Source: Desulfurivibrionaceae bacterium (GTDB lineage Bacteria; Desulfobacterota; Desulfobulbia; Desulfobulbales; VMSU01). Taken from it: 64,000 nucleotides of DNA. The translations under genes were made by a program, and so were the position numbers. Below the pieces are notes generated by a model, which did no database searches, was not told the DNA's origin, and worked only from the letters and a program-made list of their open reading frames with translations. The stretch lies in the NCBI GenBank assembly GCA_030145275.1, contig JAQYVV010000001.1:1-64000 (forward strand). The letters are read 5' to 3'. Below, piece after piece: positions 2,565 to 63,946 of the stretch (positions are counted from its first letter, which is position 1; the number at the start of each line of letters is the position of its first letter).

Positions 2565-2571
2565 GATTTTA

Positions 2572-2617
2572 TTGGTGCCCCCGGCATGATTCGAACATGC
2601 GACACCAGGATTAGGAA
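2572..2617. repeat. attL: 46-bp direct repeat of the tRNA-Arg 3' end
   Basis: These 46 bases are identical to 63901-63946. They are the 3' part of tRNA-Arg read on the minus strand, from one base beyond the CCA end to the last base of the anticodon loop. Beyond base 2617 the two copies diverge at once. Integration of phages into the 3' half of tRNA genes with an identity block ending at the anticodon loop is a known pattern for tyrosine integrases. Confidence 0.93.
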
Positions 2618-17776: not shown

Positions 17777-17780
17777 AATA

Positions 17781-34458: not shown

Positions 34459-35502
34459 ATGGCCGTAAGAGTACGGAACCTATCCAGAGAGCGGAATGAG
34501 CAAGCGAAATATCTAGCCGGTGTTGAATCGTCGAATAATGCTTACCGTGCCAGGCAAAATACACTGGCAAATGCGACCATGCTGAAGGCGGAAGTGGCCA
34601 TGAAAGATGTGGCACAGCAGAAAAAACTGCAGCAGATGCAGAACCAGGGGAAGCTCAACGAGCAAGGTTTGAGGAATACTGGTGCCATGGACACGACGCG
34701 GCTTACGACCGATACCCAGAAAGGGATGCAGCAGGCAAGATTTACCCAGGCAGATAAAACTGCGGCAACCACAAGGAAGGACACGGTTGATGACCGAGAG
34801 CTTGAATATGGTCGGGGGCTTGCGGCAACCATCGCCGGACTCATGGGAAAAACGGGTGCGGAAGAGTTTATCCCCGAAGACGTACAGGGGAAAGAGGCGA
34901 TGATTCCCGGCCTTGCCGCATCTATCGGGCAGAGGAATATCCAGGCAAATCAGGCAGAAAAGGATTTAGCGGCAAGTAAGCAGAGCTATGATCAGGGCCA
35001 GGATAAAAATAAGCTGCTGGTGGACATTCTGAAAACCATGAATAAATCCGGCGAGGGTGCATTGCAGGGGGTGGCCAGTATGCCGACGGGCCCTGGTGCC
35101 GGGGGGAATCCATTGCAGCAAGAAGTATTGGCTCAGCTTTTCCCGTCAATGGCGGCCAACTCCATGAGTGATTTACTGGGGGGCAAAGAACAGCCAGCGG
35201 CGGCGGTGTCTGATATTTCCATGACGGAGGCCTTGAAGATAGCACAAGAGGCAAGGAGCAGCTTGGCCGGGAATGTTAAAAGCATGGTGCCGGGTATAGC
35301 AGCACCGAAAACAGAAAGGCCGAAGGTGAAAAAAATATCTACGAAAAAGTATGATATTAACTACCCGGATGAGAGTAATATGACGATAAATCCGATGGTG
35401 AAAAAGATAGTAGGTGATGCTGCTACAGGGGTGAAGAAGGGGGCTGGGGCCGCTTCGGATTTACATTCCCGGTTGAACAGGTTTATGTCGACGGAGAGGT
35501 AG
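34459..35502 (+). CDS. Gln/Ala/Lys-rich helical virion protein
   Basis: The 347-residue protein starts with a basic helical part (NLSRERNEQAKYLAGVESSNNAYRARQNTLANATMLKAEVAMKD), has a Gln-rich middle (QQKKLQQMQNQGK) and a Gly/Ala/Pro-rich linker, and a basic C-terminus with a KKISTKKYDIN segment. The style fits internal or ejected proteins of podoviruses. Follows the coiled-coil gene at 14 bases with AAGGAG. It ends the first late operon; a hairpin GGGTT-N11-AACCC follows at 35522-35542 but without T-run. Confidence 0.5.
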   Translation: MAVRVRNLSRERNEQAKYLAGVESSNNAYRARQNTLANATMLKAEVAMKDVAQQKKLQQMQNQGKLNEQGLRNTGAMDTTRLTTDTQKGMQQARFTQADKTAATTRKDTVDDRELEYGRGLAATIAGLMGKTGAEEFIPEDVQGKEAMIPGLAASIGQRNIQANQAEKDLAASKQSYDQGQDKNKLLVDILKTMNKSGEGALQGVASMPTGPGAGGNPLQQEVLAQLFPSMAANSMSDLLGGKEQPAAAVSDISMTEALKIAQEARSSLAGNVKSMVPGIAAPKTERPKVKKISTKKYDINYPDESNMTINPMVKKIVGDAATGVKKGAGAASDLHSRLNRFMSTER

Positions 35503-35658: not shown

Positions 35659-37653
35659 CTAATAAGGACTCATATACCGAAGTAGGATTAACAACTCTAT
35701 TGGGTCTTGAGGCAAATCCCCAGTTGGGGATAAAATATCTATTTGAGTCTGTTTGATTAATTGATCCAGTTTCCCTCTGTTTTCGATAGCCGCAGCGTTG
35801 CCTTTTACAAATTCGATATGCATATCTATTAAAAGGCTTAACCACCTTGTGATTGCTGTCTCTTCCGGCATGTGCAATAAATGTTCTTTACTTCTTTTTA
35901 AATACCGTAACACTGCACTTTTCTTCCCAGTGATCAAAAAATCCAACATTCCCCAATCACGCCAAATTAAATCTACAGGATGTCCAGATTTAGGCATGCT
36001 GTATGAGTTCATAAATGACAATAGTCTTGTAGCGTCATTGTAATATTTTTTATTATCCACCAAAAGGCCTGAAACCACAGCACGGAGGACATGCTGCACT
36101 ACAAATCTGTCTGGCTCAGAATTTAGTGCGTCAAATCCGAGAGTAATAGATTTTGCAAAGTTTTTAATTTTAACATAAGCGAGAATTTCATAATTCAAGA
36201 GACGATTTTTATCCGCGTGATCAAGAGGAATTTCTTTTAAAAGTGAGATGCGGATAAAAGCATTTTCAATTTCGTCTGGGAACCCAACTAAAATTTGGCT
36301 TCTAAGCAAGGTCATTTCAGACTTAATGTTTATTCTTGATGAAGAAAAACCTTTTGTAGTCGGACCTTCAACAAGCAGGTCCCAACATTCTTTGTACAAT
36401 TGGACAAGAGAGTGATGGGATTTGGCTAAATCAAGGCAATCTGATAAAAGTAATGCATTCTCAATAGTATCAATTTCATACAACTGACTGTCTAAAATAA
36501 GTGGAAAATAGTCCGGTGAAAGAGCAATTTGCGATTTGAGTCGTTGCTTTTTGTCAATAAGGTGCCGTGCTTTTTGAGTATCACCTATTTTGTTTGCTAT
36601 AAGGTGCATAAAATTATAGGTACGAAACAATAGGGATATAAATTGTGGTAAATCACGTTTTTGATAACTAGCGTCCAACGCTACTTCAAGACGGTGTAAT
36701 ATTTTATATATTTCCGAAAATTTACCTTTCAAGGATTCGTCGCGCCAAATATGTTCAATAATTGCGTCTAGAGTTGAGCGGGGACCAGCAGTCCCAAAAG
36801 TAATTATCTTATCAAATAATTGAACTAAGATTTCTGTTTGCTGTTTTATATCCTCAGCTGTTTGGTAATCTATATAGGCCCAACGACGAATTGCACTGAT
36901 AAAGTTTCCATCACGCTCGGCTATACGTGCTCTTCTTTCCTGATATCCTCCGAAGGACTGAAATTCGTAGAGGATATCAACGTTTTTAAGTTTTCCAAGC
37001 AATGCTGATTCGCTCGAATATCGATGGTTATAAGAAATGTTACAAATAAAGTCGGCAACAATTAATCCCCAGGACTTATTAGCCTGCAACGTGGTAATAT
37101 TAAGTCCTTTAGAATCCAAAAAGTCTATCATCCCTCTTGATGCAATACCAGCTTCAATCGCATCGGAAATTCTTGCAACAACATCCTGATTCAAGTCGAC
37201 CAGTGTTGTCATTCGCTCGCCGCTACCTTTATTAGTTCGTGTTGCAATTACAATATCGAATCCTGACAGTTTGATATTCTCGGGGATAGTTGATTCGGCT
37301 AAAGCGATAAGGTCTAGAAGCATTAACCTATATGTTCGCTCAGGGTCAGAAAGACCAAACTTTGTCTGATTACGTGCAACTACTAATTTCCATTTATAAT
37401 GGCTGTTATATAAAGCAGAAAATAATGAGTTAGCGACCTCAACAGCTGCCCCATGCCCCCTTTCTTGTCGTAATTCGGTCAGGTGCATTTTTTTAGGTGA
37501 GGAGAGCCCTGATCGCTTTGGTAGATGGCCTAAAGTTTTGGTAAGATTTTTTTCTGCAATATCCTTATCAAAAGGACACAATATTCCACTTACTATCCAT
37601 TCTTTAGATTGGTGGAAATCTCCAGATTCATCAATAAATAAGCTGTATTTCAT
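35659..37653 (-). CDS. DUF3800 protein with long helical C-terminal part
   Basis: The protein (664 residues from ATG 37653) opens with MKYSLFIDESGDF, the hallmark of DUF3800, a predicted RNase-H-like fold whose first acidic residues (Asp8, Glu9) would bind metal. Further parts of this domain are seen to about residue 250 (LVVARNQTKFGL; ANKSWGLIVADFICNISYN). The remaining 400 residues are helical, TPR-like repeats by eye (LLNYEILAYVKIKNFAKSITLGFDALNSEPD). It overlaps the McrC-like gene as ATGA, third in a three-gene operon. Action as an accessory nuclease of the McrBC-like system is inferred. AT-rich by eye. Confidence 0.72.
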   Translation of the reverse strand: MKYSLFIDESGDFHQSKEWIVSGILCPFDKDIAEKNLTKTLGHLPKRSGLSSPKKMHLTELRQERGHGAAVEVANSLFSALYNSHYKWKLVVARNQTKFGLSDPERTYRLMLLDLIALAESTIPENIKLSGFDIVIATRTNKGSGERMTTLVDLNQDVVARISDAIEAGIASRGMIDFLDSKGLNITTLQANKSWGLIVADFICNISYNHRYSSESALLGKLKNVDILYEFQSFGGYQERRARIAERDGNFISAIRRWAYIDYQTAEDIKQQTEILVQLFDKIITFGTAGPRSTLDAIIEHIWRDESLKGKFSEIYKILHRLEVALDASYQKRDLPQFISLLFRTYNFMHLIANKIGDTQKARHLIDKKQRLKSQIALSPDYFPLILDSQLYEIDTIENALLLSDCLDLAKSHHSLVQLYKECWDLLVEGPTTKGFSSSRINIKSEMTLLRSQILVGFPDEIENAFIRISLLKEIPLDHADKNRLLNYEILAYVKIKNFAKSITLGFDALNSEPDRFVVQHVLRAVVSGLLVDNKKYYNDATRLLSFMNSYSMPKSGHPVDLIWRDWGMLDFLITGKKSAVLRYLKRSKEHLLHMPEETAITRWLSLLIDMHIEFVKGNAAAIENRGKLDQLIKQTQIDILSPTGDLPQDPIELLILLRYMSPY

Positions 37654-40214
37654 GGTTTGATCGCTCTTTGTATGTAAAAATCTCCACATTTAGGACACTT
37701 AATATTGTATGGTTCGGTACTTCTGGTGTCGTGATATGTCCAATATGAGCCATGTTTCCAGAGTCTATTTCCACAACAACCACAATAATGTTTAACGAAA
37801 AAATGCTGACAACTAGAACAAGTATAATGATTCCCACTTGTTGTGCATTTTTTAACTTTATCAAATTCGGTTCCCCCGCATATTATGCAAAACTCTTTAT
37901 TCTTAAGTTCTGCATTGTAGGCACCGTTGTTGTCTTCTGTTAAATATTGTAATGACATTGCGATGATCATTTTCAAATTATCCAAGTTTTCTGGCCTTAC
38001 TTGAACGCCACCATATTTATGTTCAGGGCCAAAATCTGTATTTTCCCAATCGAAGACACTGCTCCCTCCAAGACTTGAGCAATAACTCCAACTTTGAGGG
38101 GTAGGCAAAACAGGCAAAAATCCTTTTTCTTTCATTGGGTGTAAAATAAAAACAGCGTTGTCTCCTTTTGCGGCATAATTCTTCGTGTTTACAAGATTAT
38201 CAAGATCAGCGGAGAAAGTATTAAACTGGGGAGGTGAATTGTTATGATTTACCATGCTATATACTTTATTCTTTGGATCTAATATCAGCACCGTTTCACC
38301 GTTATTCGATCGAAAATTCAGCATAAAATCAGGTCTTGTCCCATTAGGCAATGTAGGTTGGTAAATTAACTCCACACTCTGTTTTAATGGTTTATTTTTA
38401 AAATCAAAGGAGCACTGAGCACGACTTGCTCGGCTAATTACAGTGACTAGTTTAGTCTCCCACCCTTCGTTTCGAAAACCATATCCTTCCAGAACATTAA
38501 TAATTTGAAGCAAGCACCATTTTTCATAAATATTGGGCTGATCCGTGATACCAAACTCTTGGATAGTTAGTAAGGAATCGAATAGAGATTCAAATTTTGC
38601 TTCTGTTTGAATTTTTTTAAATGATGAATATGCCCCCCTGTAGGATGGGTTTTGGACAAAGGTCATAGTTCCAGGATAGTCTAGTCTGTTTTCAACGGTG
38701 ATTTTTAAGGTTTTACATTTTTTACTTAATGATAATAAATTCTGATAAATTGAATTAAAATTTGTCACCTTTTCAGCATATTTTTTTGCAGTATTAGTAA
38801 GCATTTCGCCTCTTTTTATCATAGCCGACAATTCTATCTCTTTATCTTTCTTCTCCTTTGCATTTAGCTGCCTTTTCCAATTTTCGGTACGGTATTTATC
38901 TCGTTCTTTTTTTAGTGAAGTTATAACGTTGTCGTGTGGATCATCAATAATTTCCAATGAAGATAATTTCTTAATAATGCCAAAATAAATTTTAGGGTTA
39001 TCGGTTTCGTACCTTTCGTAATGAACCTTTGATATTTTATACTTTGTTTTTTTTGTGAAAAAATTAACATTGCAAGAATCACAGGGAAACTTCAGCCCGC
39101 ATTTAACTTCACGTCCATCTTTCAATTTTGTTTTGTACCATACAACAATGAGTTCTGGATTTATGGCGTCAATTTGTGCTGAATCTACAGTAAAGCAAAT
39201 ACTCTCTTTGTTTTGAGAAGAACTGTATTCGTTTTGAATCGAAAAATATTTTTCAAATTCACTTTTCTTTTGTTCCCATCGTCTTTTTTTACTTTCTTCT
39301 TGTTCAATTTCTGCATCTAATTTGTCAGAATCAATTTCAATATAATCGTTCTTGTTTTGTGAAATATTCTCTTGAAGAAACTTAACATTCGTCTCCAGTG
39401 ATTCTTTGGAAGATTGCATCCCATTTTTCAAATTTCTAACAACCAAAACCAGCCGGTTTACAATATCAGCTATATATTTATTTTCTGGTGTATTGTATGA
39501 TGGTTTATATCCTCTACCTGTAACGGATTTTATGGAAGTCCCTCTCGCCGCTAGTTCCATAAATGTTTTTGAAGTTGGCCGTACTTTTTCAATTCGTTGG
39601 ATTTCCTGCCTTTCTCGTAATTCTTCGTTCGGTTTGACTAAAACTTGCTCTGCAAATTTTATAAATTTACCTACCTCCCTTTGAAATTCTTCTCCCGGCA
39701 GCTTCCCTTTACCATCATTTGATGTTGTTACATGACTATCTTTCTCAAGAATTAATTGCCATAATTCACCCTTGAATGAATCCAAAAGTCTTTGATATTC
39801 TACTGGAGTAAAACCAGAAGGTGTAATATTAAGACGAATTGTAATGTCGCCAATGTTGATGGTAAATAAACCGACGTATCTGCATGAAGGGGCATCATGA
39901 TATTTATATTGCCTGATCCAATCTCCTTTTTCAATCCACCATTTACCATGCTTGGGATCTGATACAGAAAAAAGATTCTTCGTGTCATTCTCCTGTAAAA
40001 TCTTTGGGGGTGAATTAAAGGTAGATATACATCTAAAAGCTATCTGACTGTGCTTGTTGCCGAGAAGGGAGTAAGAGGGGATGTCAGCGGTATAAATATT
40101 TTCTTCCTGCTTGGTGAGTTTAATCGGACTATGCGAAATTGCATCTATGTAGCCGAAATGATCTTTCGATTGCCAATGGATGCGGACAAGTTTTAACTCA
40201 AAATCTTCAGACAT
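37650..40214 (-). CDS. McrC-like nuclease (DUF2357 plus PD-(D/E)xK) with C-terminal double zinc ribbon
   Basis: The 854-residue protein has an N-terminal DUF2357-like part (about 1-330; RLLDSFKGELWQLIL, TFMELAARGTSIKSVTGRGYKPSYNTPENKYIADIVNRL), a central coiled coil (about 270-330), a zinc knuckle pair (CGLKFPCDSC) and a PD-(D/E)xK nuclease with RPDFML (Asp629), then LILDPKNK (Asp646, Lys648). The last 90 residues carry several CxxC pairs (CIICGG; CSSCQ; CGCCGN; CPKCG), likely two or three zinc ribbons for nucleic acid binding. McrC proteins cut DNA when driven by their McrB partner, encoded three bases upstream. The target is unknown. Confidence 0.75.
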   Translation of the reverse strand: MSEDFELKLVRIHWQSKDHFGYIDAISHSPIKLTKQEENIYTADIPSYSLLGNKHSQIAFRCISTFNSPPKILQENDTKNLFSVSDPKHGKWWIEKGDWIRQYKYHDAPSCRYVGLFTINIGDITIRLNITPSGFTPVEYQRLLDSFKGELWQLILEKDSHVTTSNDGKGKLPGEEFQREVGKFIKFAEQVLVKPNEELRERQEIQRIEKVRPTSKTFMELAARGTSIKSVTGRGYKPSYNTPENKYIADIVNRLVLVVRNLKNGMQSSKESLETNVKFLQENISQNKNDYIEIDSDKLDAEIEQEESKKRRWEQKKSEFEKYFSIQNEYSSSQNKESICFTVDSAQIDAINPELIVVWYKTKLKDGREVKCGLKFPCDSCNVNFFTKKTKYKISKVHYERYETDNPKIYFGIIKKLSSLEIIDDPHDNVITSLKKERDKYRTENWKRQLNAKEKKDKEIELSAMIKRGEMLTNTAKKYAEKVTNFNSIYQNLLSLSKKCKTLKITVENRLDYPGTMTFVQNPSYRGAYSSFKKIQTEAKFESLFDSLLTIQEFGITDQPNIYEKWCLLQIINVLEGYGFRNEGWETKLVTVISRASRAQCSFDFKNKPLKQSVELIYQPTLPNGTRPDFMLNFRSNNGETVLILDPKNKVYSMVNHNNSPPQFNTFSADLDNLVNTKNYAAKGDNAVFILHPMKEKGFLPVLPTPQSWSYCSSLGGSSVFDWENTDFGPEHKYGGVQVRPENLDNLKMIIAMSLQYLTEDNNGAYNAELKNKEFCIICGGTEFDKVKKCTTSGNHYTCSSCQHFFVKHYCGCCGNRLWKHGSYWTYHDTRSTEPYNIKCPKCGDFYIQRAIKP

Positions 40215-40217
40215 TAT

Positions 40218-42605
40218 TTATGTCCAGAAATTATATACATTGTCATTATGTTCCGCACTCTGGATCATCCGCTGTAATTCAGTAGAGGCATTGATAGAAG
40301 TGCTGCTTTCTTTCGTCAGGTTAATCGTATCGTTAATTTCTCCAGCGAACTGCTTTACCAGGTCATGCTTCTTTATTTCTGTATTGTCTTTAACGCCAGT
40401 CATGTCGCCATCAAACATAAAATGGGGTAAAATTTTCATCAACAAAATATTATTTAGGGTATCACTACTAAATAATTGGTCGGTACGCTCTGGTCGAATT
40501 TCTTTATATAACTTCTGGAACAACAGCGATTGACGGACAACCCTCATGCCAATTTCAATTCCTAAAGGGGACAAAAACTCCTTATTCCATTCCCCAAATT
40601 TACTGGCAATACCATCATTGTGTTTGTATTCAGGATAAGGTCCTCTTGTTTGCCAAAAATCATTTGGCGATAAACAAACAGGGCTTGAATTTATCTCCCT
40701 TCCTTTAACCTCTTCCTCAACAAGGGCAACATGTGCTAGAGGGTTTTCAAATTTTAGGAGATAGGCTCGATCTAATACTTTAGGGGCGAAATAGTGTGTT
40801 GTTTGGTCAATATTGATTGTGCCAATAATCCTAACATTACTGGGAAATTCAAACTCAGCTGGAATAGTTAACACTCCGCTTACCATTCTGCGCAGTTTGC
40901 CATACAGATCGACAAGAGAATTGTTCTCCTGTTTTCCGAATATTTCTTGGAGTTTCTGGGTGATATCTTTATGATGTAAAAAATCTCCAAAATCGATAAA
41001 TCTTTTGTCAGGAAAATCTGATCGAGCTTTCTCGAAAATATCAATAATAGTTCTGAATTCAGCTTTTATATGGTCTGCTTCTTCCTTAGAGTAAAGGCTG
41101 ATAGTTGGAGTTTTTTCCCTCTCCTCTAACACTGACAGGAAATCAGCAAAATAATACTCCACCCTCGCAAGATTCATTTCATCCAAGCAGATAAGATGCA
41201 AATGATCAGGATCCCGTTTTGCAGCAACAATGGCATCAAGAAAAGGGGTTGTCATGTATGATTTTTGCATAGGGTTGTAGTAACCAAGCAAATCCTCTGA
41301 ACTGGTCCAGTTTGGTTTGACCGGAATTATTTTTGCTACACCGCCAATGGCTTCAGCAAAGGATTTCACGAGATATGACTTTCCACACCCAGATGAACCG
41401 GAGATAATAATCAGATCATTTGTACGTAACAAAGTTAAAAAGGTTTCCAAAACTGACTTTGGATAAAGTTTGTTTTTTTCAAACAGATAAGATTGAATGT
41501 GTGATATAAGTTGGTCGTAATCACTGTTTAGATCGTCAGAAAAAGAAATGTGGCTTTTGTCATTTTCTGATTCCGGTGTGGCTTTTCCTGTTACATAGTC
41601 AGATTGGTCCTGTGAAATCAACTTAAGCTCACGCAAGAAATCAGCCTTAGATTGAACATATTCTTTGAGTTGCATCATCTTTTGTCTCGTGTTTTCTTTT
41701 ATAATATCTAATCGTTCAATTGCTCTCTTCTTGTCACGATGACATTTATTTTTTGTTTTATGCAGTTCATCTTTTTCATTATTGAGACTTTCTTTTATGA
41801 CTTTTCGTTTGTCGTCAATAACTGATATATGATCGTTAACTTCATTTAATTCTTCGTTCTTTTTTGTTAATTTGTTTTTTAAGTATAACAGCTCTTCTTC
41901 ATATTTATTAATTGTGTCGTTAATGTCTGGTAGTTTTGTCTCTACCATATATTGCATTAGTGTTTCTTCAATTAGTACATTGCCACCCTCATCTTTTTTG
42001 ACAAAATTGCTTGGTATTGTTGGAATACTATTTACCGACTTTATTTCAACTGACAATGGATTGTTTGCCTTGTCACATTCACCTAGTGAGCTAATTACTA
42101 TCTTTGCTTTTACCCAGCTATTAGGTTTGATATTATGTTTACCCCCTGCATAAATTCCGAAACCATTTACTGTTTTGTTAATAGCTAGAATTTCATCGGT
42201 GTCAAAAGGGTATTCAAGTATTCTCCCATTAACATTCCTAACGTCCCTTAAGGTGTGGTATCTAGTAGCCAGTGATTTTTTTTCTAATAGTCCATACACA
42301 CAATCATCAACTAACTCCCATTGATTTTTTAAATAAACAAGCCTTTCATTTGGTGACATTTCCCAAAGATCTTTAATTGCAATGTATTCCATTTGTTTCT
42401 CGTATCTATTCTTCTCAATGCGCTTGTCTTCTACCGTTGTCTCACTCACACCAAGTTTAAGACGAATCTCTTCCACGACGTCCTCATCAAGAAATGAATT
42501 ATAGGCTTTTACAGCGTACCCCTGTTCAATGAGTTGAGCTGCCAAAACTTTACTATCAATTCCTGCTTCTTTGGCTAACTCGTATACTCTAATCTTACCA
42601 CCCAT
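40218..42605 (-). CDS. McrB-like AAA+ NTPase with IF2-N-like domain and long coiled coil
   Basis: The 795-residue protein has four parts. Residues 1-52 (IRVYELAKEAGIDSKVLAAQLIEQGYAVKAYN) match the small IF2 N-terminal fold. Residues 60-215 are a beta-type region without recognised family. Residues about 220-330 are a long Lys/Glu-rich coiled coil (YLKNKLTKKNEELNEVNDHI; NEKDELHKTKNKCHRDKKRA). Then an McrB-type AAA+ domain: Walker A GSSGCGKS (403-410), Walker B CLDEMNLARVEYYFADFL (Asp475-Glu476) and a sensor stretch GTINIDQT. McrB-type motors usually hydrolyse GTP. A ribosome site AGGAGTAACC precedes the ATG. First gene of the operon with the McrC-like and DUF3800 genes. Confidence 0.78.
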   Translation of the reverse strand: MGGKIRVYELAKEAGIDSKVLAAQLIEQGYAVKAYNSFLDEDVVEEIRLKLGVSETTVEDKRIEKNRYEKQMEYIAIKDLWEMSPNERLVYLKNQWELVDDCVYGLLEKKSLATRYHTLRDVRNVNGRILEYPFDTDEILAINKTVNGFGIYAGGKHNIKPNSWVKAKIVISSLGECDKANNPLSVEIKSVNSIPTIPSNFVKKDEGGNVLIEETLMQYMVETKLPDINDTINKYEEELLYLKNKLTKKNEELNEVNDHISVIDDKRKVIKESLNNEKDELHKTKNKCHRDKKRAIERLDIIKENTRQKMMQLKEYVQSKADFLRELKLISQDQSDYVTGKATPESENDKSHISFSDDLNSDYDQLISHIQSYLFEKNKLYPKSVLETFLTLLRTNDLIIISGSSGCGKSYLVKSFAEAIGGVAKIIPVKPNWTSSEDLLGYYNPMQKSYMTTPFLDAIVAAKRDPDHLHLICLDEMNLARVEYYFADFLSVLEEREKTPTISLYSKEEADHIKAEFRTIIDIFEKARSDFPDKRFIDFGDFLHHKDITQKLQEIFGKQENNSLVDLYGKLRRMVSGVLTIPAEFEFPSNVRIIGTINIDQTTHYFAPKVLDRAYLLKFENPLAHVALVEEEVKGREINSSPVCLSPNDFWQTRGPYPEYKHNDGIASKFGEWNKEFLSPLGIEIGMRVVRQSLLFQKLYKEIRPERTDQLFSSDTLNNILLMKILPHFMFDGDMTGVKDNTEIKKHDLVKQFAGEINDTINLTKESSTSINASTELQRMIQSAEHNDNVYNFWT

Positions 42606-43049
42606 GGTTACTCCTAACCTTCCGTACCTTCTTGCTCTCCAGCAATTATTTCTAAATCAACAGCTAATATCTATATTCTCATGAACGGCCTGACTCCTGA
42701 AAGACCAAGCTAACTTCTTATTTTATTTCTAAAATGAACCCTGATTATCAAAGCAAATCTAAGGTACAGTTAGCAATTTCGGTTAGCAATTTAGCTGATT
42801 CTTTTGTTTTGCTGTTTTTTCGTAAATTGTCATAATTGTCTTTGACAATTTGTAAACTTTTGGTCACGTTTGGTGGTTAACTAGAGGGACAACTCAACAC
42901 TGGGGGATAACCAGCATAATTATCTCATATTTTTTAAAATATAATGTAATTATAAAAATTAAACAATATCTCACCATCTTGTATGTAGAACCAATTCGAA
43001 ATAGTGTAAAGTTATGGCCGATATCGTTCATAATTTTCAGGAAATAATA
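42606..43049. promoter_or_regulatory. Divergent region between the McrB-like operon and the LRR gene
   Basis: No gene is seen. It holds a direct repeat GTTAGCAATTT at 42769-42779 and 42782-42792 (period 13), and an inverted repeat AATTGTC-TTT-GACAATT at 42834-42850, with a further TTGTC half-site before it. A leftward promoter for the McrB-like gene fits TTTACA-N16-TATGAC around 42832-42860. The repeats could be operators for a cargo-encoded or host repressor. The 43 kb side is AT-only around 42930-42970. Confidence 0.45.
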
Positions 43050-43751
43050 ATGCAAATAATAAACCTTTATGATCGTCGGAAGGCCAAGTTGATGGAGCAG
43101 CGACTCTGGATGGAGCGACTTTGGGCATGGGCCGACCTGCTAGATATAAAAGAATACAATGTGCCGAGAAATGAGCATGAATTGTTCAATTTGACGCACC
43201 TTTCTTTTGAAAGCTATCGATATTATGGAAAAGATAAATTTTCAGAACTACCACCGGAAATAGGAAATTTAACGAAATTAAAATTTCTTGAACTTGGGCA
43301 TGTTGTTAACTGTGCGATGCAGTTTTTGAATAATCTGACAGAATTACCAAAAGAAATTGGGCAACTAACAGAGTTGACCCATCTTTATGTTCAAGATAAC
43401 AGTCTAACTGAACTTCCAAAAGAAATTGGCAATCTTACTCTGTTAACAGAATTAAAACTTGGTTTTAACCATTTGACAAATTTACCTAAAGAGATAGGGA
43501 GTTTAGCTAAATTAGAAATTCTTACTGTTTGGCAGAACGAATTGAAAAACTTACCAAATGAAATAGGTAATTTAAGACAATTAAAAGGGCTTTCTGTCTG
43601 GGGTAATCCTTTAGTGGAATTACCCCAGGAAATTGTCAATCTCACAGAACTAAAAGAATTAGAACTAGGAAGAAATATACGGCTTACTGCGCCACAGAAA
43701 GAATGGATCAATGAATTAAAACTAAATGCTGCTAATGTGCATTATTTGTAA
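43050..43751 (+). CDS. Leucine-rich-repeat protein (cargo gene)
   Basis: Residues from about 55 to 215 hold six to seven LRR units of 22-23 residues with the pattern LTELPKEIGNLTxLxxLxLxxNxL, the bacterial/plant-type LRR consensus. The N-terminal 50 residues are basic and helical (YDRRKAKLMEQRLWMERLWAWADLL) and replace the usual cap. No signal peptide is present, so it is cytoplasmic. ATG 43050 with AGGAAATAATA is preferred; a start at 43014 would add 12 residues. LRR proteins act in protein recognition. Here it stands alone, next to the McrB-like operon, and could sense or bind a phage protein. Its role is unknown. Confidence 0.65.
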   Translation: MQIINLYDRRKAKLMEQRLWMERLWAWADLLDIKEYNVPRNEHELFNLTHLSFESYRYYGKDKFSELPPEIGNLTKLKFLELGHVVNCAMQFLNNLTELPKEIGQLTELTHLYVQDNSLTELPKEIGNLTLLTELKLGFNHLTNLPKEIGSLAKLEILTVWQNELKNLPNEIGNLRQLKGLSVWGNPLVELPQEIVNLTELKELELGRNIRLTAPQKEWINELKLNAANVHYL

Positions 43752-44167: not shown

Positions 44168-44182
44168 GGGGTGGGAGGGATT

Positions 44183-47100
44183 ATGACAACGCAATATGAC
44201 CAGAACAAGCTGGCAGTGGCACGGATGTGGAATTCTAATGATGCGATTGCTTCGGCTTTGAGCCAGCAGGAAGGCTTTGATATGCAGGAGCATCTTGAGC
44301 GGGGTTATTCCCATTCGGAGATTGTTGACCATCTGGCCCTTGGCGGTGAATTAAAACCGAAGGTGAGCCTTGGTGCAGAGGTGGCCCGAGGCCTGGGACG
44401 CGGGCTTGTTGATGTGGTCCAGCTTGGCCCTGAACTGGTTGATTTTGGTTTGCATATGGCAGGCGCTGATGTGGCAAGGGAGAGCCTTACAACACCTGTA
44501 TTACAGGCAATGGACAGGTTTAAGGAGAGTGAGGCGCTTCGTCCTTCATTGGCGGCGGAGGCTGAAGGGATTACGGCACGAAAACTTGTATCCGGAGTAT
44601 CGCAAGCCTTGCCGACTCTGGCCTCTATGTTTGTGCCGGTGGGGCTGGCCGGAAAAGCGGTGCAGGCAAGCAAGGCCGTTGGTGCCCTTGACAAGGGGGT
44701 GAAGGCGACAAAGGCCGGGAAGTTTATAGGTGGGGTGCCGGGGGCGGTTGGGGTCGGCAGTGGAATGCTGATGGAAGGCAATTTTGCCCACGGTGAATTT
44801 CGAAAATTTGCCGAAGAAAATCCGGATGACCCGAATGTTAATGCTATGAATGATTTTGTGGCAACGGTGGGAACCGGGGCCTTTGCCGGTGGTTTAGAGG
44901 CCCTTTCCGGGATGACCTTTTTTAATAAACTGTTTGGCAAGGCAGGCGGCAAGGTTGCGGGGAATATCTGGAAGCGGATAGCTCATGAGGTGCCCCAGGG
45001 CATGTTAATGGAGGGCGGAACCGAGGCGATACAGGAGGTCATTGCCAATGGTTTTGCAAAGTTGGGATATGACCCTAGCAGAGAGCTTACAGAGGGGGCC
45101 TTTGAGTCCTTTCTGATAGGTGGTCTGCTTGGCGGCGGTGTGGGCGGGGTCAGCGCTGCGCTACAGAAGCCGAATGAGCATGTACCAGCAGTTGATATTG
45201 AAGGGTATGATGTTGGCCGGGAAGCAAAAAAGCCTGGGGCCAGTCTGGCTGAGGTAATCAAGGCAGCCCAGGAGGGAACTGGTTCTTTTGATGAGGCACG
45301 GGAGATCGGCTTGGGGCTTGATCAGGGAACTGATCTTGCAAAGAGCATTATGGCAAGGGTTGACCAGGCTGAAGAGAGGCAAGCCCCAGGGCAGAGTTCA
45401 AGTGGTGTTTTTGCTGATACCGGAGTTGGCGGCGATGTGCCGGACTTTGCTGCATCTGTCCCTGAGGTCATAGAGGCAGATCCCTTTGCTGAAAAGAGAG
45501 ATGGTGCCAGGCCTGTTACCGATGAAATGATGCTGGAAGAGCTTGCCGGGCAAAGGGAAGAAAGTATTGAAGAGAACCGGGCCGGGCTTCAGGAACGGTT
45601 GACCGGCCCTCCTGAGAGTGCAGAAGATATTGCCCGGAGGATTGCTGAGCGGCCTGAGACGGAGCTTGAGAAGCAGCTTGCCAATAGAGAGCGCTTGGCG
45701 GCAACAAGGCAGACTCGCCAGAAAGACCTGGAGGTGGCTTTTTCTGATATGACTCCTGAAGAGCTGCGACCGGGATTTCAAAAGATACGTGAACAGATAG
45801 AATCCGGGGAGGCTGGCGGACAGCAGGTACGAAATGATGAGGGTGAGTTGGTTGGTTTCTTAGGTTCTTCCTATCCCGAGTGGTACAGGTTTAAAACCAA
45901 GGAGAAGCTGAAAAAACTAGGACGTGATTGGAACTGGACAAAGAAAGATGTATTTAGCGTGCTTGATAAGGTGCGGGAGGGCAAGGAGCTGACTGGCAGG
46001 CAGCAAGAACGTTTTGAAACTTTGGTGAAAATCGCCAAAGAGGACAAGGACGTAAGTTATGAAGCCAACCAGGCGGAGAAGTATGATGATCTTCTCGATA
46101 GGGGTTTTGAACCGCTTGAAAAAGATGTGCTGGCGGGCGACCTGAAACCGGGCGACAAGGTTGTCATCAAAGAGGGTTTGATCGATGATGAATACGAGCA
46201 TAAGGGTTATGACAGGGACGGTAATGTTATTCTTAAAGACGGCATAACCAAGCACGTTGACCCGTTTGAGGCCGTTCGAGTTGAGGGGATCAAGCGCGGG
46301 GACACTGAGGTCTATGATGATAATGTTGTCGCTGGCATCTTAGAGGCCATTAAGACAAATAAAGATATTGAAGCAACGGCAAAAGAGGTGGAGGCTTTTG
46401 CTGACAATCCCAAGATGGTACCGCATTTGGAGACGCTGCGGGGAGCAGTGGCAAAAAGGCGTGCCTTTGAGAAAGAACTGGCAGACGGTATAAAGGGTGA
46501 AAGTGGCAGTAATAAAAAAACCAAAAAACCAGAGGTCAAATATGATACAGTAGAGGAAGGAGGAGTCAGATATGGATTACCCCATCGAGCCGCATTGCCA
46601 GATGATAATAGACAAACCGGTGAACCATCCGATGTATCTGACGGTGCGCCGAAACAGCTCACCCTCTTTTCGCCGCAAGGAGATGTCCCTGGCAGAACGC
46701 GAACTCAGAAAAAATTCCTTGAGGCTTATCCGGCCAAGATAGGCAGTTTCCGTTTCGATACGGATACAGTGAGCAGCGCCCAGGATGCGGCGCATGTTTT
46801 ATCCCCCCTTACCATGAGAGCCCAGGAAACCGCCCTTGTTCTGGCGCTTGATTCAAATAAAAAACCGATTGCGGTCTTGCAACATTCCGTTGGCGGCCCC
46901 CGTTTTAACAATGTTTTCCTGCCCCAGCTTGTTGGTTCTCTTCATAACCTGAAGGGGATTGATTCCTTCTGGTTCGCCCATAACCATCCTTCCTCCAACC
47001 TTTCCAAAAGCCCGGAAGATGCGAAACTGACTATGGCAATTCAGAACGCGGTCAAAGACACCGGTGTGTCGTTTAACGGTCATATTATTGTGACCCCTGC

Positions 47101-50100
47101 TGGAAAGGCGGTTGAGCTTGATAGAAGGGGGAAGCATAAAGGGGCCGCATTTTCTTTGCGGCAGAAGCAGGGGAAGGGCTTGCGCTCTGTGAAGGTGCTG
47201 GAGCGAAGGCTTGCTGGAGATGAACCGGAACTTCTTGGCCCTGTTATCAGTAGCAGCGCCGATATGCGCCAGTTTTTTGCTGATAAGGCAAAGGGCTTAA
47301 GCGGAATTTTACTGCTTGATACCCAGCATCGGCCGGTACAGTTTGTGGCAGCGACCAGGGATGAAATGGTGAAGATGCGGGCCGGGGGAATTTCCGGCCT
47401 GGCGGCAAAGCTCTACCGGATTTTGGATCGGAAAAATAATGCGGGGAGTGTGGCCCTGCATTTTGGCCGAGAGAGTGCGAAGAATAAGGTGGCCATTGAG
47501 AACGTCACTGCCTTTACAAATGCCATTGGGATCAACCTGCTTGATGTTTTTGTCGGGGGGAGGAGTTTGGCGGATGCGGGGGAGGTTTCGCAGTTCAAAG
47601 AGGAGGCTGGAACGGCCTTCTTTTCAAGATCAGAGATTGACAATCCTTTTTCTTCTAGGGATACTAAAGAGAAAGAGGACGATAATGGCAAAATCACTAA
47701 GAGGGCCGAATATCTCAGAAGAAGGCTTGCAAGGTACTACGGAAGAGAAATACCAAAAGGTACCATTGCCGAAGTTCAACTGCCTGACGATCATACTGCT
47801 GATGCAAGAAGAGGATCGCCTGAGGAAATTGGGACAGGCACCCGTACAGGAACCTCTGACAATCCCAATAGGCGAGACGGTGGACAGGTTCTTTCTGGTT
47901 CTGCAGCGATTGCAAGAAAAGTGGGAAGGATCTTCAAGAAAGAAATAGTATTTTTTAAGGACACACATGGTGCCGGGATTGACGGCGCCCACTTCATCGG
48001 GAAGAATATTTTCGTCAATATTGACAGTTCCCATCCCCATCTTTTCATCACTGGTCACGAATTACTCCATACCCTGAAAAAAGAGCGACCCGATTTATAC
48101 GCACCACTACGTGCAGTGGCGGAGGAGGAAATGAGGCTCTCGGCTTTTAAAGACTTTCAGGAGCGGCTTTCTGCTAAGACTGATGCCGAAGGGCGCGGCC
48201 CGGCTTCTGATAGTTTGGTGTATGAAGAGATGCTGGGCAATTATTTTGGTACCCAGATGTTTGAAAAGACTTTTTGGGAAAAGGTTGCCGGGCACGAAAC
48301 CTCGTTATTCAAGAAGCTGGTGCGTTACATAGAAAAATTCATCCGGCTTTTAAAGGGGAAAATGAGTTTTGCTGGGCTGCAAAACTCAGAATATTTTCAT
48401 GATCTTGTGAGAGTCCAGGACGTTCTGGCCAAAGCAGCAGCAGACTACGGGAAGGGGCTGCATCGCCTTGAGCTGAAAAATACACCTACTTTCTACCGCC
48501 AGGCCTTTGCCGAAGACCTGGCCAGTGTGGCTGCGGGTGTGCATGAAAAGGTGAAGGCGGGCGGAACCTTTATCGAAGGGAAAAAGGACATTAATCTCTT
48601 TGACCTGGTGCTGTCGTCAATTGAGCATTACGCCGACAAAGTGCCGGTGATCAAGCGCTATAATGATATTATCCTGAGCCGGGTTGACAGGAAATTTAAA
48701 CTTGAGACGGAGATGCTGCAGGCGACTGGAGAAGATGCTTTAAGGATCCTGGAGGGTTTGTCTAAGAAGAATAGGAAGCAATATGACAATTTGGCCGGGT
48801 ATCTTGTCGAGAAAGACCGCAACCAAGACGGGTTTCGTATGGAGCGAAATGATGGAACCTGGTCTGTTTTCCATCCTGAGAATAAAGAAGCACTTTTTGA
48901 TGGATTGAGTGAAGAGGAGGCGGTGGCGGAAATGGTCAAGGCCGAGGGTGAGTATGTGCGGTCTAAGGGTTTCAGCAATGAGGCGGTTGACGCGCTTATC
49001 ACTTTCCGAGCGGTTATGAATAAAGGCTTTGATAAACTGGTTGAGCAGCTTCGGGCTATGGAAAAGGAGGCGGCAGAGAACAACCAGGAAGTACCATCCA
49101 TAGAAGTAGCTGCCGCAGAAAAACGGTGGGCGATATACAAAGACAATCCAGAACTTGCAGTGGAAATATTCAGGAGTAAAAAAGAAGCGCAGCTCTTTAT
49201 GTCAGAGCTTGAAAAGGACGATTTAAAAAGGATGCAGTACAGGCTTAACAAGTTTTATCAAGCCGGGAATTCTGTCAAGCTTATCGAGCGCACAGCCGAA
49301 CAAATGGCCAGTGACCCAAAGACCGAGTTTATTACTCTTAGCGAGGCGATTGCTGAAATGGGGGATCTGCGCGGTTGTTATTTTCCACGCCAAAGAGAGT
49401 CAGGGGAGCTTATTCTGACAGCTGTTAAGGACGGCGAAAATCCGATCCTTAAAAAGTTTGACCTTGGTATTGCTGCTATGGAAGGTGATACCCCCAATAT
49501 GGCAAATGTTAAAAAGGCATTTAACGCCTTTACACCGCTGGGGGCAGAAATCCGGAAGCTGGAAAAGCAGGGTTTTAGCATTACGGTGAAAAAAGATGAA
49601 TCGGTGGCTGAAGACCTCTTTGATGTGGTCAAACTGGTTTCCTCGGTTGAGGGTGTTTTACAGAAGGCGGCCCAGAAGGCCGGGGCCGGTGAGAATCAGA
49701 TAGTCAACGAGGTTAACCGGATTTTGGTCAACTCTGTGGCTGACATATTCAAGGGGCGCGGCTATCTGAGTGCCAGGATAAGAAGGAACGCTAAAGAAGG
49801 AAGTGAGGTTTATACTGGCTATGAAGAAGATCCTCTCAAGGCCATGACCAAGTACGTTAAATCATTGGCCGGTGGTATGGCCAAGCGTGATGTTGCCAAA
49901 GAAGCCACCCTTGTCCTCCTGGGTAAAGACATCTCCTGGGGCATGTATAAGAAAGAGAATAAGGATGCAGAGTATGAAGAGTATCTGAAGCTGGTGGAAA
50001 AGCGCAAGCTTGATCCTGGCAAACAGAAGATGGGCTATCATGCTGTAATGACCCATTATCGGGAGAATATGCGAAATGAAGAACGTGTTGACCGGATAAT

Positions 50101-51508
50101 TGGCACGGTGAAAGGTTTGGCGGTTTTAAAGTTTTTGGGTTTCAGGGTAAGTTCTGCAGCGGTCAACTTAACTAATCTGGCCATGGCGGTTCCTGCGACC
50201 ATGAAAGGGATTGGCAAGATACCTTATCAGAAGACCTGGGGCTATATTGGCGGGGCCGCTATTTCCTACGGCAAGTTTTTAAATGGTGGCGGTAGCAAAG
50301 AAGATCGGGCCGTTTTTGAGTTGATTAAGGCGAATGGCTGGGACGAGGCCCAATTTAATATGGATGCTGCCAAGGTTTTAGAGTCCCGGCTTGGCGGTGG
50401 TTGGAATTGGCTTATGAATAAAGCCATGCTCATGTTTGGCGCAACTGAAAAAGTAAACCGGGCAACCACCATCTTTGCGGCCTATAAGTCTCTTGTTGAA
50501 GAAAGAGGTATGGACACTAAAGATGCCTTGACCTTGGCCAAAGAGATAAGTGACAAGGCCCATGGTGTCTATGGAAAGGTAACCTTGCCGCATATGGCAA
50601 TGGGTAAAGGGCCTGGACAGATGGCCTTGCGCCTGGCTTATGTGTTTCAGAAATTTTCCCATAATTATCTGCTGACCATGAAACGGCTGGGCTGGGATGA
50701 GGGCGAGTGGGGATCGTTTGCCCATATGCTTCTTGCCCCTGCGGTCTTAGCTGGGGCTGGTGCGAGTGCGTTGACCCCGATTATTGCCGGAATCTCCAAG
50801 GCGTTAGGCGGCGGCGATGATCCAGAAGAGGAATTATACACCTGGGCCAATGATGCCTTTGGCGGCGGGGAGTGGATGCGGCATGGAATTTTGGGCCTGG
50901 GTGGCAGAGGAGTGAATCTAAAAGGCAGTTTACAGATTAACTATGCGATACCGACTACTATGGCTGAATTTCTGGGTGCGCCTGCCTCGGTCCTGACTGA
51001 TGAGTGGCGTGGCCTACAAGAAATCAGCAAGGGCAATGTCCAAAAAGGTCTGGAGAAAATGGCCCCTTCAGGAGTTGCGGCCCCTTTCAGGGCTATTCGT
51101 GAGTATCGTGAAGGTGTGACAACGCATGGCAATGCCCCTATATTTTTCGGGGATGAACCGATTAAGGGCACTGGGCTTGACGCGGTTATCCGCTTTTTTG
51201 CCTTCAATCCTTCCAGGCTATCTAGTATGCGGGAACAACAATGGTCTGATACGAAGGTTGAGGCGAAGTATGCCGGGATTAAGCGTGGTATTTATGGTGA
51301 TATACGGAAGTTCTACATGCAGGAACCAGAAAGGCGGGATGTTGGTGACTGGGGGGAGATTCTTGCAGAAATTTATGAATATAATGAGAGGGTGGTTGCT
51401 TCAGGGAGGCCGGGTTTGAGCAGGATAACTGGGAGGAGTATTGGTCAGATGCTGAGGAGAGGTTTTCGAGCTTCGAAGAGGGAGAGGCTGCGGGTGGTGA
51501 ATGGGTGA
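44183..51508 (+). CDS. Giant polyvalent virion protein with JAMM peptidase-like and zincin domains
   Basis: The 2,441-residue protein starts at ATG 44183 after GGGAGGG (a GTG twelve bases earlier is too close to the T-run). Residues 75-330 have several Gly/Ala-rich hydrophobic segments suited to membrane penetration. A JAMM/RadC-like domain around residues 840-980 has HNHP (His933, His935) with SxxD eight residues later, a deubiquitinase or RadC-type metal site. A zincin domain has GHELLH (His1292, Glu1293, His1296). The last 1,050 residues are helical (VSSAAVNLTNLAMAVPATMKG), like the large polyvalent-protein domains of phages. It is probably injected with the DNA and acts on host proteins early in infection. 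Length and domain order are typical of polyvalent proteins. Confidence 0.8.
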   Translation: MTTQYDQNKLAVARMWNSNDAIASALSQQEGFDMQEHLERGYSHSEIVDHLALGGELKPKVSLGAEVARGLGRGLVDVVQLGPELVDFGLHMAGADVARESLTTPVLQAMDRFKESEALRPSLAAEAEGITARKLVSGVSQALPTLASMFVPVGLAGKAVQASKAVGALDKGVKATKAGKFIGGVPGAVGVGSGMLMEGNFAHGEFRKFAEENPDDPNVNAMNDFVATVGTGAFAGGLEALSGMTFFNKLFGKAGGKVAGNIWKRIAHEVPQGMLMEGGTEAIQEVIANGFAKLGYDPSRELTEGAFESFLIGGLLGGGVGGVSAALQKPNEHVPAVDIEGYDVGREAKKPGASLAEVIKAAQEGTGSFDEAREIGLGLDQGTDLAKSIMARVDQAEERQAPGQSSSGVFADTGVGGDVPDFAASVPEVIEADPFAEKRDGARPVTDEMMLEELAGQREESIEENRAGLQERLTGPPESAEDIARRIAERPETELEKQLANRERLAATRQTRQKDLEVAFSDMTPEELRPGFQKIREQIESGEAGGQQVRNDEGELVGFLGSSYPEWYRFKTKEKLKKLGRDWNWTKKDVFSVLDKVREGKELTGRQQERFETLVKIAKEDKDVSYEANQAEKYDDLLDRGFEPLEKDVLAGDLKPGDKVVIKEGLIDDEYEHKGYDRDGNVILKDGITKHVDPFEAVRVEGIKRGDTEVYDDNVVAGILEAIKTNKDIEATAKEVEAFADNPKMVPHLETLRGAVAKRRAFEKELADGIKGESGSNKKTKKPEVKYDTVEEGGVRYGLPHRAALPDDNRQTGEPSDVSDGAPKQLTLFSPQGDVPGRTRTQKKFLEAYPAKIGSFRFDTDTVSSAQDAAHVLSPLTMRAQETALVLALDSNKKPIAVLQHSVGGPRFNNVFLPQLVGSLHNLKGIDSFWFAHNHPSSNLSKSPEDAKLTMAIQNAVKDTGVSFNGHIIVTPAGKAVELDRRGKHKGAAFSLRQKQGKGLRSVKVLERRLAGDEPELLGPVISSSADMRQFFADKAKGLSGILLLDTQHRPVQFVAATRDEMVKMRAGGISGLAAKLYRILDRKNNAGSVALHFGRESAKNKVAIENVTAFTNAIGINLLDVFVGGRSLADAGEVSQFKEEAGTAFFSRSEIDNPFSSRDTKEKEDDNGKITKRAEYLRRRLARYYGREIPKGTIAEVQLPDDHTADARRGSPEEIGTGTRTGTSDNPNRRDGGQVLSGSAAIARKVGRIFKKEIVFFKDTHGAGIDGAHFIGKNIFVNIDSSHPHLFITGHELLHTLKKERPDLYAPLRAVAEEEMRLSAFKDFQERLSAKTDAEGRGPASDSLVYEEMLGNYFGTQMFEKTFWEKVAGHETSLFKKLVRYIEKFIRLLKGKMSFAGLQNSEYFHDLVRVQDVLAKAAADYGKGLHRLELKNTPTFYRQAFAEDLASVAAGVHEKVKAGGTFIEGKKDINLFDLVLSSIEHYADKVPVIKRYNDIILSRVDRKFKLETEMLQATGEDALRILEGLSKKNRKQYDNLAGYLVEKDRNQDGFRMERNDGTWSVFHPENKEALFDGLSEEEAVAEMVKAEGEYVRSKGFSNEAVDALITFRAVMNKGFDKLVEQLRAMEKEAAENNQEVPSIEVAAAEKRWAIYKDNPELAVEIFRSKKEAQLFMSELEKDDLKRMQYRLNKFYQAGNSVKLIERTAEQMASDPKTEFITLSEAIAEMGDLRGCYFPRQRESGELILTAVKDGENPILKKFDLGIAAMEGDTPNMANVKKAFNAFTPLGAEIRKLEKQGFSITVKKDESVAEDLFDVVKLVSSVEGVLQKAAQKAGAGENQIVNEVNRILVNSVADIFKGRGYLSARIRRNAKEGSEVYTGYEEDPLKAMTKYVKSLAGGMAKRDVAKEATLVLLGKDISWGMYKKENKDAEYEEYLKLVEKRKLDPGKQKMGYHAVMTHYRENMRNEERVDRIIGTVKGLAVLKFLGFRVSSAAVNLTNLAMAVPATMKGIGKIPYQKTWGYIGGAAISYGKFLNGGGSKEDRAVFELIKANGWDEAQFNMDAAKVLESRLGGGWNWLMNKAMLMFGATEKVNRATTIFAAYKSLVEERGMDTKDALTLAKEISDKAHGVYGKVTLPHMAMGKGPGQMALRLAYVFQKFSHNYLLTMKRLGWDEGEWGSFAHMLLAPAVLAGAGASALTPIIAGISKALGGGDDPEEELYTWANDAFGGGEWMRHGILGLGGRGVNLKGSLQINYAIPTTMAEFLGAPASVLTDEWRGLQEISKGNVQKGLEKMAPSGVAAPFRAIREYREGVTTHGNAPIFFGDEPIKGTGLDAVIRFFAFNPSRLSSMREQQWSDTKVEAKYAGIKRGIYGDIRKFYMQEPERRDVGDWGEILAEIYEYNERVVASGRPGLSRITGRSIGQMLRRGFRASKRERLRVVNG

Positions 51509-62676: not shown

Positions 62677-63726
62677 TTAGAACCCCAGTCCAGCTATTTT
62701 GTCAACTGCTGCCGTCTTGTGTGAGTCAATAAGGTGTGAGTAGCGCATAACCATATCCATTGATTTATGACCAAGTATTTCAGCCAGAGTTCTGAGATCG
62801 ACTCCTGCCATAATTAGGTAGGAGGCTGCCGTGTGCCTAAGGTCGTGCATGGTGAAATCTTGGAGTTCGGCATAACGGACTGCATTGTCAAAAGACCGTT
62901 GGAAATAGCGGTTTGGTCGTTTTTTAACGTAGGCTGTGACATTCTCAGGAAGAAAAACCCAATCTTCTGGCTGCCAATTTTGAGGCTGGATTTGTAATAG
63001 GGCCGCAGCCGCCTTCTTGGAAAATGGGGCTCTCCTTGGCTCGGTTTTAGTTTCGGTCAGATCTGCGATAAAATTTTTAAAATCAACCTGTCCCCAGGTG
63101 ATGCCGGCTGCCTCGCTGGGTCGCATGCCGGAGTGGACTAAGAGCAATACATAAGCGTATAGCTTTTTGTTTCTGGACTCACAGCAGATATCCAGCAGTA
63201 TTTTTGCTTCAAGTTCGCTCAAAAAACGAGTGCGACCTCGGGCAACTGTCGGCTTTCTGATTTTTGTAACCGGGTTGGTAAGCTGTAAGCCCCAGTCCCT
63301 ATTGGCTACTGTGTAGATATGCGAAAGAAGGGCGAGTTCTTTCAAGATTGTTGAGGATGAGACGGTCTTTGCCCGTTTGTCTCGATAAGTTGCGACCTGC
63401 TCAGATGAGATACCGATTAAGGTTTGCCCTCTAAAAAATTTCCTGAGAGGTTTTTCTGAAACATTATCGCGATCACGGGTGTTAGGCTTTTTTTTGCTGG
63501 TAACCTCAACTAGATATCGGTCCAGAGCGCCAATGAAATCTCTGTCCCCAGGCGGGTCGTCACCAATATAGCCTCCATTACGTAGGGCTTCCTCCGTTTC
63601 CTCTGCCCACTCATGAGCCTCGGACAGCTTCTTAAAAGTCTGTGAAACCGAGGGGTGGCCTTTGACCCTAACCTTAGCTTTGTATACAACACCTTTGTTA
63701 CGCTGTCTTTTTTCAATTGTTGCCAT
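62677..63726 (-). CDS. int: Phage integrase, tyrosine recombinase, att-site specific
   Basis: The protein (349 residues) starts at ATG 63726 with GGGAGGATAACA before it; the open frame continues backward into the tRNA but is not translated there. Arm-binding part (residues 1-60, KRQRNKGVVYKAKVRVKG), core-binding part (60-160), and catalytic part with Arg202 (GMRPSE), His294-x-x-Arg297 (HDLRHTA), His320 (ILGHKS) and Tyr329 (MRYSHL). All six catalytic positions can be recognised. It lies against attR, the classical position of the integrase that uses that tRNA. It should integrate and, with a directionality factor, excise the phage. Confidence 0.95.
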   Translation of the reverse strand: MATIEKRQRNKGVVYKAKVRVKGHPSVSQTFKKLSEAHEWAEETEEALRNGGYIGDDPPGDRDFIGALDRYLVEVTSKKKPNTRDRDNVSEKPLRKFFRGQTLIGISSEQVATYRDKRAKTVSSSTILKELALLSHIYTVANRDWGLQLTNPVTKIRKPTVARGRTRFLSELEAKILLDICCESRNKKLYAYVLLLVHSGMRPSEAAGITWGQVDFKNFIADLTETKTEPRRAPFSKKAAAALLQIQPQNWQPEDWVFLPENVTAYVKKRPNRYFQRSFDNAVRYAELQDFTMHDLRHTAASYLIMAGVDLRTLAEILGHKSMDMVMRYSHLIDSHKTAAVDKIAGLGF

Positions 63727-63900
63727 TGTTATCCTCCCGGAAACCGCCAAATTTTCTTGGGGACATTTTGGGGACACTTTTGGGGACAATTCTAAGCAAA
63801 TTGTAGCAAAAAGACAAGGTTTATTGACGACTACTGATGACTGAGGCAGAAACAAAAAAGGCCAAAACCCCTTACTGCTGGTGGTTTTGGCCTGTATTTG
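63727..63900. other. Region between integrase and attR with a tRNA terminator
   Basis: This 174-base stretch has no gene. It holds the integrase upstream region and the phage-borne tRNA terminator at 63859-63893. Two related TGGGGACA-type words at about 63759-63787 (GGGGACATTTTGGGGACAC, then TGGGGACAATTC) form a direct repeat spaced 14-15 bases that could be integrase arm sites. Confidence 0.45.
63859..63893 (-). terminator. Phage-supplied terminator of the tRNA-Arg gene
   Basis: Perfect 11-base arms AGGCCAAAACC (63859-63869) and its complement (63883-63893), read on the minus strand, are followed by a T-run (complement of 63853-63858). It lies just past the tRNA 3' end. It replaces the displaced chromosomal terminator at 2535-2564. 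Confidence 0.75.
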
Positions 63901-63946
63901 TTGGTGCCCCCGGCATGATTCGAACATGCGACACCAGGATTAGGAA
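63901..63946. repeat. attR: 46-bp direct repeat inside tRNA-Arg
   Basis: Identical to 2572-2617. It spans the 3' part of the tRNA from one base past CCA through the anticodon loop. The phage therefore carries the 3' tRNA part that restores the gene after integration. The crossover lies somewhere in these 46 bases, as usual for tRNA-targeting integrases, probably in the anticodon-loop side. Confidence 0.93.

Follow-up and report, generated by a model that had tools for sequence, protein, structure and literature searches.

A prophage within the 64,000-nucleotide stretch of DNA analyzed here (hereafter, the window) carries a three-gene McrBC-type operon that we classify as a variant of the Type I-A CoCoNuT and not as a plain member, an assignment in which placement in a GTPase tree plays no part. 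The operon encodes a CnuB/McrB-like GTPase (gene A), a CnuC/McrC-like protein (gene B), and a putative DUF3800 protein (gene C), and the N-terminus of its CnuB is the captured 5' end of an infB gene. The sequence itself shows which protein families are present and what their active-site residues are, the translational coupling of the genes, the cargo position in the prophage, and the origin of the IF2-N part, as well as the co-inheritance of the three genes in two classes of one phylum. Our preferred reading, on which we are evenly divided, is that of a prophage-carried antiphage Type I-A CoCoNuT extended by the DUF3800 protein, which would be RNA-directed and might use IF2-N as a tether to NusA.

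Operon structure and prophage setting

All three ORFs are encoded by the minus strand, in the order and with the spacing given in the original prediction, with 3 nt between A and B and an ATGA overlap between B and C (Table 1). The longest ORF of gene C (35659-37689) has 676 aa; its likely start is Met13 (ATG at 37653), because its relative in locus L008 begins at the same point. The host is a sulfur-cycle bacterium whose genome is 84% complete (67 contigs), and the provirus (2568-63946; 61.4 kb) looks complete, having genes for terminase, portal, head, and integrase. One of its structural genes has a related counterpart in Hollowayvirus-like phages, and we assign the element, by sequence resemblance, to the Hollowayvirus/F116-like prophages integrated in tRNA-Arg. 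Phages of this kind are known mainly from Pseudomonas.

The operon sits in an AT-rich cargo segment between two phage structural genes whose counterparts are about 53 bp apart in a related prophage (L040) from the same bacterial family. The giant virion protein to the right of the cargo shares 47% identity over 1049 aa with the giant ORF of L040. It is 2445 aa long, includes a stretch matching the phage DNA-repair family phrog_10276, and has a 5225 aa counterpart in L040. A strong hairpin followed by a T-run (44086-44162) is a likely terminator that shields the phage gene downstream of the cargo; an Rfam miRNA match on this hairpin was attributed to chance. Leucine-rich-repeat genes are listed in compound Type III-A CoCoNuT operons (PMC11090510), and a link between the operon and the leucine-rich-repeat gene of the same cargo is possible.

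Table 1 Features of the operon, its proteins, and the surrounding prophage (nucleotide positions refer to the window, residues to the protein named).
Feature	Position	Strand	Details
attL, 50-bp direct repeat of tRNA-Arg 3' part	2568..2617	+	98% identical to 63897-63946
AbiEii-like toxin and DUF6088/AbiEi-like antitoxin, in prophage	7716-9427		toxin: Pfam 3e-38
Type III restriction-modification genes, then Mrr-type endonuclease, in prophage	9646-14844		near terminase genes
Histidine kinase-like ATPase and response-regulator pair, AT-rich prophage stretch	16592-18473		kinase weakly matches PADLOC PDC-M43B
Phage gene left of cargo	34459..35502	+	position of the 274-aa gene adjoining the phrog_10969 homologue in L040
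AT-rich cargo segment	35503..44170	.	G+C about 0.36 vs about 0.50 in phage
Gene C, DUF3800 with helical-repeat C-terminus	35659..37653	-	664 aa; overlaps B by ATGA
C: motif IDESGDF	residues 7-13
C: motif AD	residues 200-201
Gene B, CnuC/McrC-like	37650..40214	-	854 aa
B: DUF2357 with insertion	residues 125-281		Pfam 2.8e-5, above cut-off
B: PD-DxK nuclease	D629, D646, K648
B: four C-terminal CxxC pairs	776/779, 799/802, 811/814, 840/843
Gene A, CnuB/McrB-like GTPase	40218..42605	-	795 aa
A: IF2-N, captured	residues 1-66
A: region aligning with CnuB N-terminal domain	residues about 75-210
A: coiled coil	residues about 214-326
A: Walker A GSSGCGKS	residues 403-410
A: Walker B DEMN	residues 475-478
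A: helical insert	residues about 513-577
A: NxD motif NID	residues 598-600
infB 5' coding segment, first 66 codons of A	42408..42605	-	IF2 N1 domain and linker VEDKRIEK
ylxR 3'-end remnant and infB ribosome-binding site	42606..42728	-	frameshifted, in-frame stops
Leucine-rich-repeat protein, same cargo, divergent from A	43014..43751	+	Pfam LRR_14 1e-25; G+C 0.35 region
Giant phage internal virion protein right of cargo	44171..51508	+	phrog_2206 virion RNA polymerase 2.5e-6
Prophage integrase	62677..63927	-	phrog_1 3.7e-66
attR, within tRNA-Arg	63897..63946	+

Relationship of the core pair to Type I-A CoCoNuTs

Both core proteins matched the models of the PADLOC-DB candidate system PDC-M26 over almost their full lengths with strengths far beyond chance (PDC-M26A: 3e-197; PDC-M26B: 9e-151), and the A/B pair is therefore already catalogued. 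The PDC-M26A match begins at residue 75 and so leaves out IF2-N, and no PADLOC model matches gene C. The McrB-type AAA+ core proposed earlier for A was recovered (AAA_5: 6e-9) with both Walker motifs in place. The best PDB match of A is E. coli McrB, and hhalign aligned the two homologous GTPases (7.9e-7) with the NID of A opposite NTAD; N598 and D600 are invariant in an alignment of seven homologues. From Walker B to NxD, A has an additional stretch of about 60 residues that E. coli McrB lacks and that is helical in the AlphaFold model of A, which, like that of C, is of low confidence (mean pLDDT: 41 for A, 51 for C). The coiled coil of about 110 residues expected in A coincides with a predicted 113-residue helix (pLDDT about 60), and relatives of A contain coiled-coil Pfam families. 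Residues about 100-210 align with the N-termini of other I-A-like CnuBs, in a part of the model too poor to show a CSD-like OB fold.

The DUF2357 and PD-(D/E)xK assignments of B also held. The three nuclease residues and the four CxxC pairs, of which several had been predicted, are invariant among six homologues, and B aligns with E. coli McrC at the DAK nuclease site of the latter. With PDDEXK_7, the window copy falls slightly below the cut-off, and five of the six family members match (best: 1.1e-7). Judged solely from the alignment, extra regions of B have a plausible place and size for an Ig-like N-terminal sandwich, a coiled coil, and a CSD insert.

As published, the Type I-A CoCoNuT has two components, CnuB and CnuC, and no others (Bell et al. 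2024, PMC11090510); an NxD motif marks the CoCoNuT-containing branch, and a helical insert marks Type I-A (PMC11090510). Genes A and B share with this type the NxD GTPase, the coiled coil, the helical insert between Walker B and NxD, the DUF2357, PD-DxK, and zinc-ribbon cysteines of CnuC, and the arrangement of two adjacent genes with CnuB first. They differ in the IF2-N at the CnuB N-terminus and in the coupled DUF3800 gene, and we speak of a variant because this third coupled gene is present in both the window and L008. The text of PMC11090510 contains neither 'IF2' nor 'DUF3800', and we found no account in the literature of a CoCoNuT-like McrBC combined with a DUF3800 third gene, in line with the original supposition that the combination had not been described.

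Two-gene loci homologous to A and B were found in Klebsiella, Salmonella, Escherichia, Pseudoalteromonas, Massilia, and Sphingopyxis, and several A+B homologue loci adjoin defence genes (Zorya, type I RM with viperin, Dnd). Other CnuB-like genes among 395 genomes of the phylum share only the ATPase core (82-123 bits vs 951-1085 bits for two true members). Scans of viral contigs (queries A1, C, A2, and Klebsiella CnuB) returned one weak partial match and thus no second phage-borne copy.

A defensive role of this pair could also take the form of classical Type IV DNA restriction, with the GTPase translocating on modified phage DNA, the PD-DxK nuclease of CnuC cutting it, and DUF3800 processing the products or acting as a backup. 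The nuclease residues are intact (DxK, as in E. coli McrBC), the closest relative by structure is E. coli McrB, and type III RM and Mrr genes are found in the same prophage, all of which are in keeping with this alternative. However, E. coli McrB has NxxD, lacks both the helical insert and a long coiled coil, and bears a methylcytosine-binding domain where A has its N-terminal parts, whereas A carries CoCoNuT hallmarks. Domains of an RNA-binding type have been reported for CoCoNuTs (PMC11090510), and elsewhere the partners of DUF3800 are CRISPR effectors with RNA-dependent activation. We regard DNA restriction of this kind as a serious but rather unlikely explanation.

Origin and retention of the IF2-N domain

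The IF2-N-like start of A is well supported (Pfam IF2_N: E=1e-12, residues 3-53; IF2 N1, PF04760: 48 bits vs a cut-off of 25.3). It is a captured infB 5' end: the match at DNA level extends upstream past the ribosome-binding site and reaches the 3' end of ylxR. By blastn, this match reached 77% DNA identity over 320-324 nt to L048/L049, spanning ylxR-infB. The captured stretch (about 320 nt; 42409-42728) comprises the ylxR end, the ribosome-binding site with the infB Shine-Dalgarno AGGAG (42611-42615), and 66 infB codons. Residues 1-66 share 79-80% aa identity with IF2 of two genomes of genus g266 (G495 and G418), which belongs to another family of the host's order. The IF2 of the host itself, encoded elsewhere in the genome, is only 61% identical over residues 4-52, ruling out the host's own infB as the donor.

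By these comparisons, the domain stems from another genus of the host's order and is not ancestral to the system. The CnuB of a third Desulfobacterota relative (L007), 62% identical to A, begins after IF2-N, and the domain is present in one of seven aligned CnuBs, the window copy, with that end missing from the L008 sequence. No CnuB was found in 22 genomes of the donor's family. Matches to IF2-N in plasmids were actinobacterial and mostly without an annotated gene, and two neighbourhoods that were inspected held no annotated McrBC.

The two parts of the captured stretch have fared differently. The IF2-N frame stays open over 66 codons, with 19 of the 24 substitutions unique to the captured copy at third codon positions, whereas the ylxR piece has acquired in-frame stops and indels. 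Changes at codon positions 1 and 2 number 5/132 in IF2-N vs 14/78 in ylxR (Fisher P=0.0009), and dN/dS of the IF2-N part is 0.07-0.12. This contrast in selection is suggestive rather than proof, and we grade the evidence that IF2-N was retained for a function as moderate, because one donor also shows loose evolution of its ylxR tail and some of the branch is older than the capture.

The same capture can be explained by selection on translation only, in which case the infB ribosome-binding site and first codons would have been placed before cnuB, IF2-N would have no function of its own, and the operon would be an ordinary CoCoNuT. The inclusion of the Shine-Dalgarno and of flanking ylxR DNA fits this account, as do the single known occurrence of the domain and the closely related CnuB that does without it. 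The open frame, the excess of third-position changes, and the low dN/dS speak against it, with the caveat that the constraint signal may partly predate the capture. Overall, this explanation is possible but on the unlikely side.

Gene C as a clade-specific addition

The DUF3800 assignment of gene C was borne out in coverage (profile 2-148 of the 149 positions of PF12686) and motifs, but its score is below the threshold (15.2 bits vs a cut-off of 21, E=0.037; L008 copy: E=0.0043). DUF3800 is a nuclease family with an RNase H fold. The IDESG and AD motifs are conserved between the window and L008 copies, in a region where the fold model is below pLDDT 50 and too poor to show an active site, and the C-terminal part is a helical-repeat region. 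The L008/G168 locus, from another class of the same phylum, has A, B, and C in the same order with close spacing, and its B-C overlap is TAATG, following an AGGAG. Identities to the window proteins are 69-70% (A), 62% (B), and 78% (C), making C the best conserved of the three, and dN/dS is 0.08-0.13 where calculable (C vs L008: 0.08). The L007 sequence ends before the position of C. In front of its cnuB, at 343-770, lie a serine-recombinase fragment and a G run, which suggest that the start has been rearranged or badly assembled.

A DUF3800 gene was found in both Desulfobacterota loci in which the position is visible (the window and L008/G168). Since neither six proteobacterial I-A-like loci nor any of the plasmid and phage records searched contain it, gene C is best described as a stable clade-specific add-on, seen twice, and not as an obligate component. 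Thus, the prediction of a CoCoNuT-like McrBC with a DUF3800 third gene stands, but not its claim that DUF3800 is obligate, since every proteobacterial I-A-like locus examined, and plasmids, lack it. With DUF3800 rarely adjacent in homologous loci, the operon is a sub-variant instead of the distinct system that had been proposed.

Its absence from these loci would also be expected if gene C were a separate, solitary module that entered the operon as a passenger. This is improbable given the coupling to cnuC in both loci (ATGA or TAATG), the co-inheritance across two classes, and the strong conservation of C. Moreover, in 395 genomes of the phylum we found one close homologue (G168; 78% over the 348 residues present) and one weak partial match, and hence no homologue apart from cnuBC beyond that weak match. 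An assembly artefact, for which one could cite the incomplete, probably metagenome-derived genome and the closest relatives also being MAG contigs, is very improbable given a host infB that lies elsewhere and differs, a fused segment that differs by about 20% from every infB found and adjoins a decayed ylxR piece, open frames, and coherent prophage ends.

DUF3800 nucleases occur beside V-A2 and VI-F CRISPR loci, in one case with helical repeats (PMC12669027, PMC10910872). Gene C resembles the TPR-DUF3800 proteins beside Cas12a2 (V-A2) and VI-F (PMC10910872, PMC12669027) in joining DUF3800 to helical repeats and in adjoining a defence effector. It differs in that its partner is an McrBC-type system and not a CRISPR effector, and an Rfam search beside gene C found no ncRNA. 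The analogy speaks for an RNA-linked role of C without proving it.

Proposed mode of action

The prophage setting with other defence genes and the Zorya, type I RM, and Dnd genes near homologous A+B pairs speak for the preferred reading; against it, only two loci have the third gene and only one has IF2-N. By homology to McrBC, CnuB would form a GTP-driven hexameric motor around nucleic acid, and the PD-DxK nuclease of CnuC would cut; DUF2357 of CnuC would activate CnuB. The OB-type and zinc-ribbon parts would grip nucleic acid, as the literature predicts for CoCoNuTs thought to survey RNA, and the DUF3800 protein may join as a second nuclease, brought in by its helical repeats. The N1 domain might tether CnuB to NusA and thereby to RNA polymerase and nascent transcripts, so that, when another phage superinfects, the lysogen would detect or destroy that phage's RNA or its DNA under transcription. 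The RNA target is a published prediction for CoCoNuTs, the recruitment by IF2-N and the role of DUF3800 are what we infer, and the intact PD-DxK of CnuC would suit a DNA target just as well.

IF2-N had been proposed to sense translation or ribosomes. The reported direct partner of the N1 sub-domain is instead NusA, which it binds in E. coli (PMC12297416), and a tether to the transcription machinery is for this reason the better-founded guess. The contact is known in E. coli only and also uses IF2 residues 57-90, of which the captured segment keeps just the start. The most specific version, that a prophage took a NusA-binding IF2 N1 domain from another bacterium and fused it to a CoCoNuT GTPase, so that a nuclease complex dependent on RNA or transcription, in which DUF3800 is the second nuclease, is aimed at transcribing RNA polymerase, is a speculative proposal that we think unlikely to be right.

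Implications

Taken at sequence level, the locus is a real and uncommon version of a system type that is known yet experimentally uncharacterised. Of its two additions, the IF2 domain is more surprising than DUF3800, because it opens the target of CoCoNuTs to direct testing: the domain has a defined binding partner in E. coli (NusA), and its natural fusion to CnuB offers a falsifiable handle on whether CoCoNuTs act at transcription. DUF3800, so far noted beside V-A2 and VI-F CRISPR effectors, is now linked to an McrBC-type system. The prophage has been caught acquiring a domain of a housekeeping factor, with the decayed ylxR piece as an internal control for retention, and this capture hints at a way in which systems of this type could be directed to nascent RNA.
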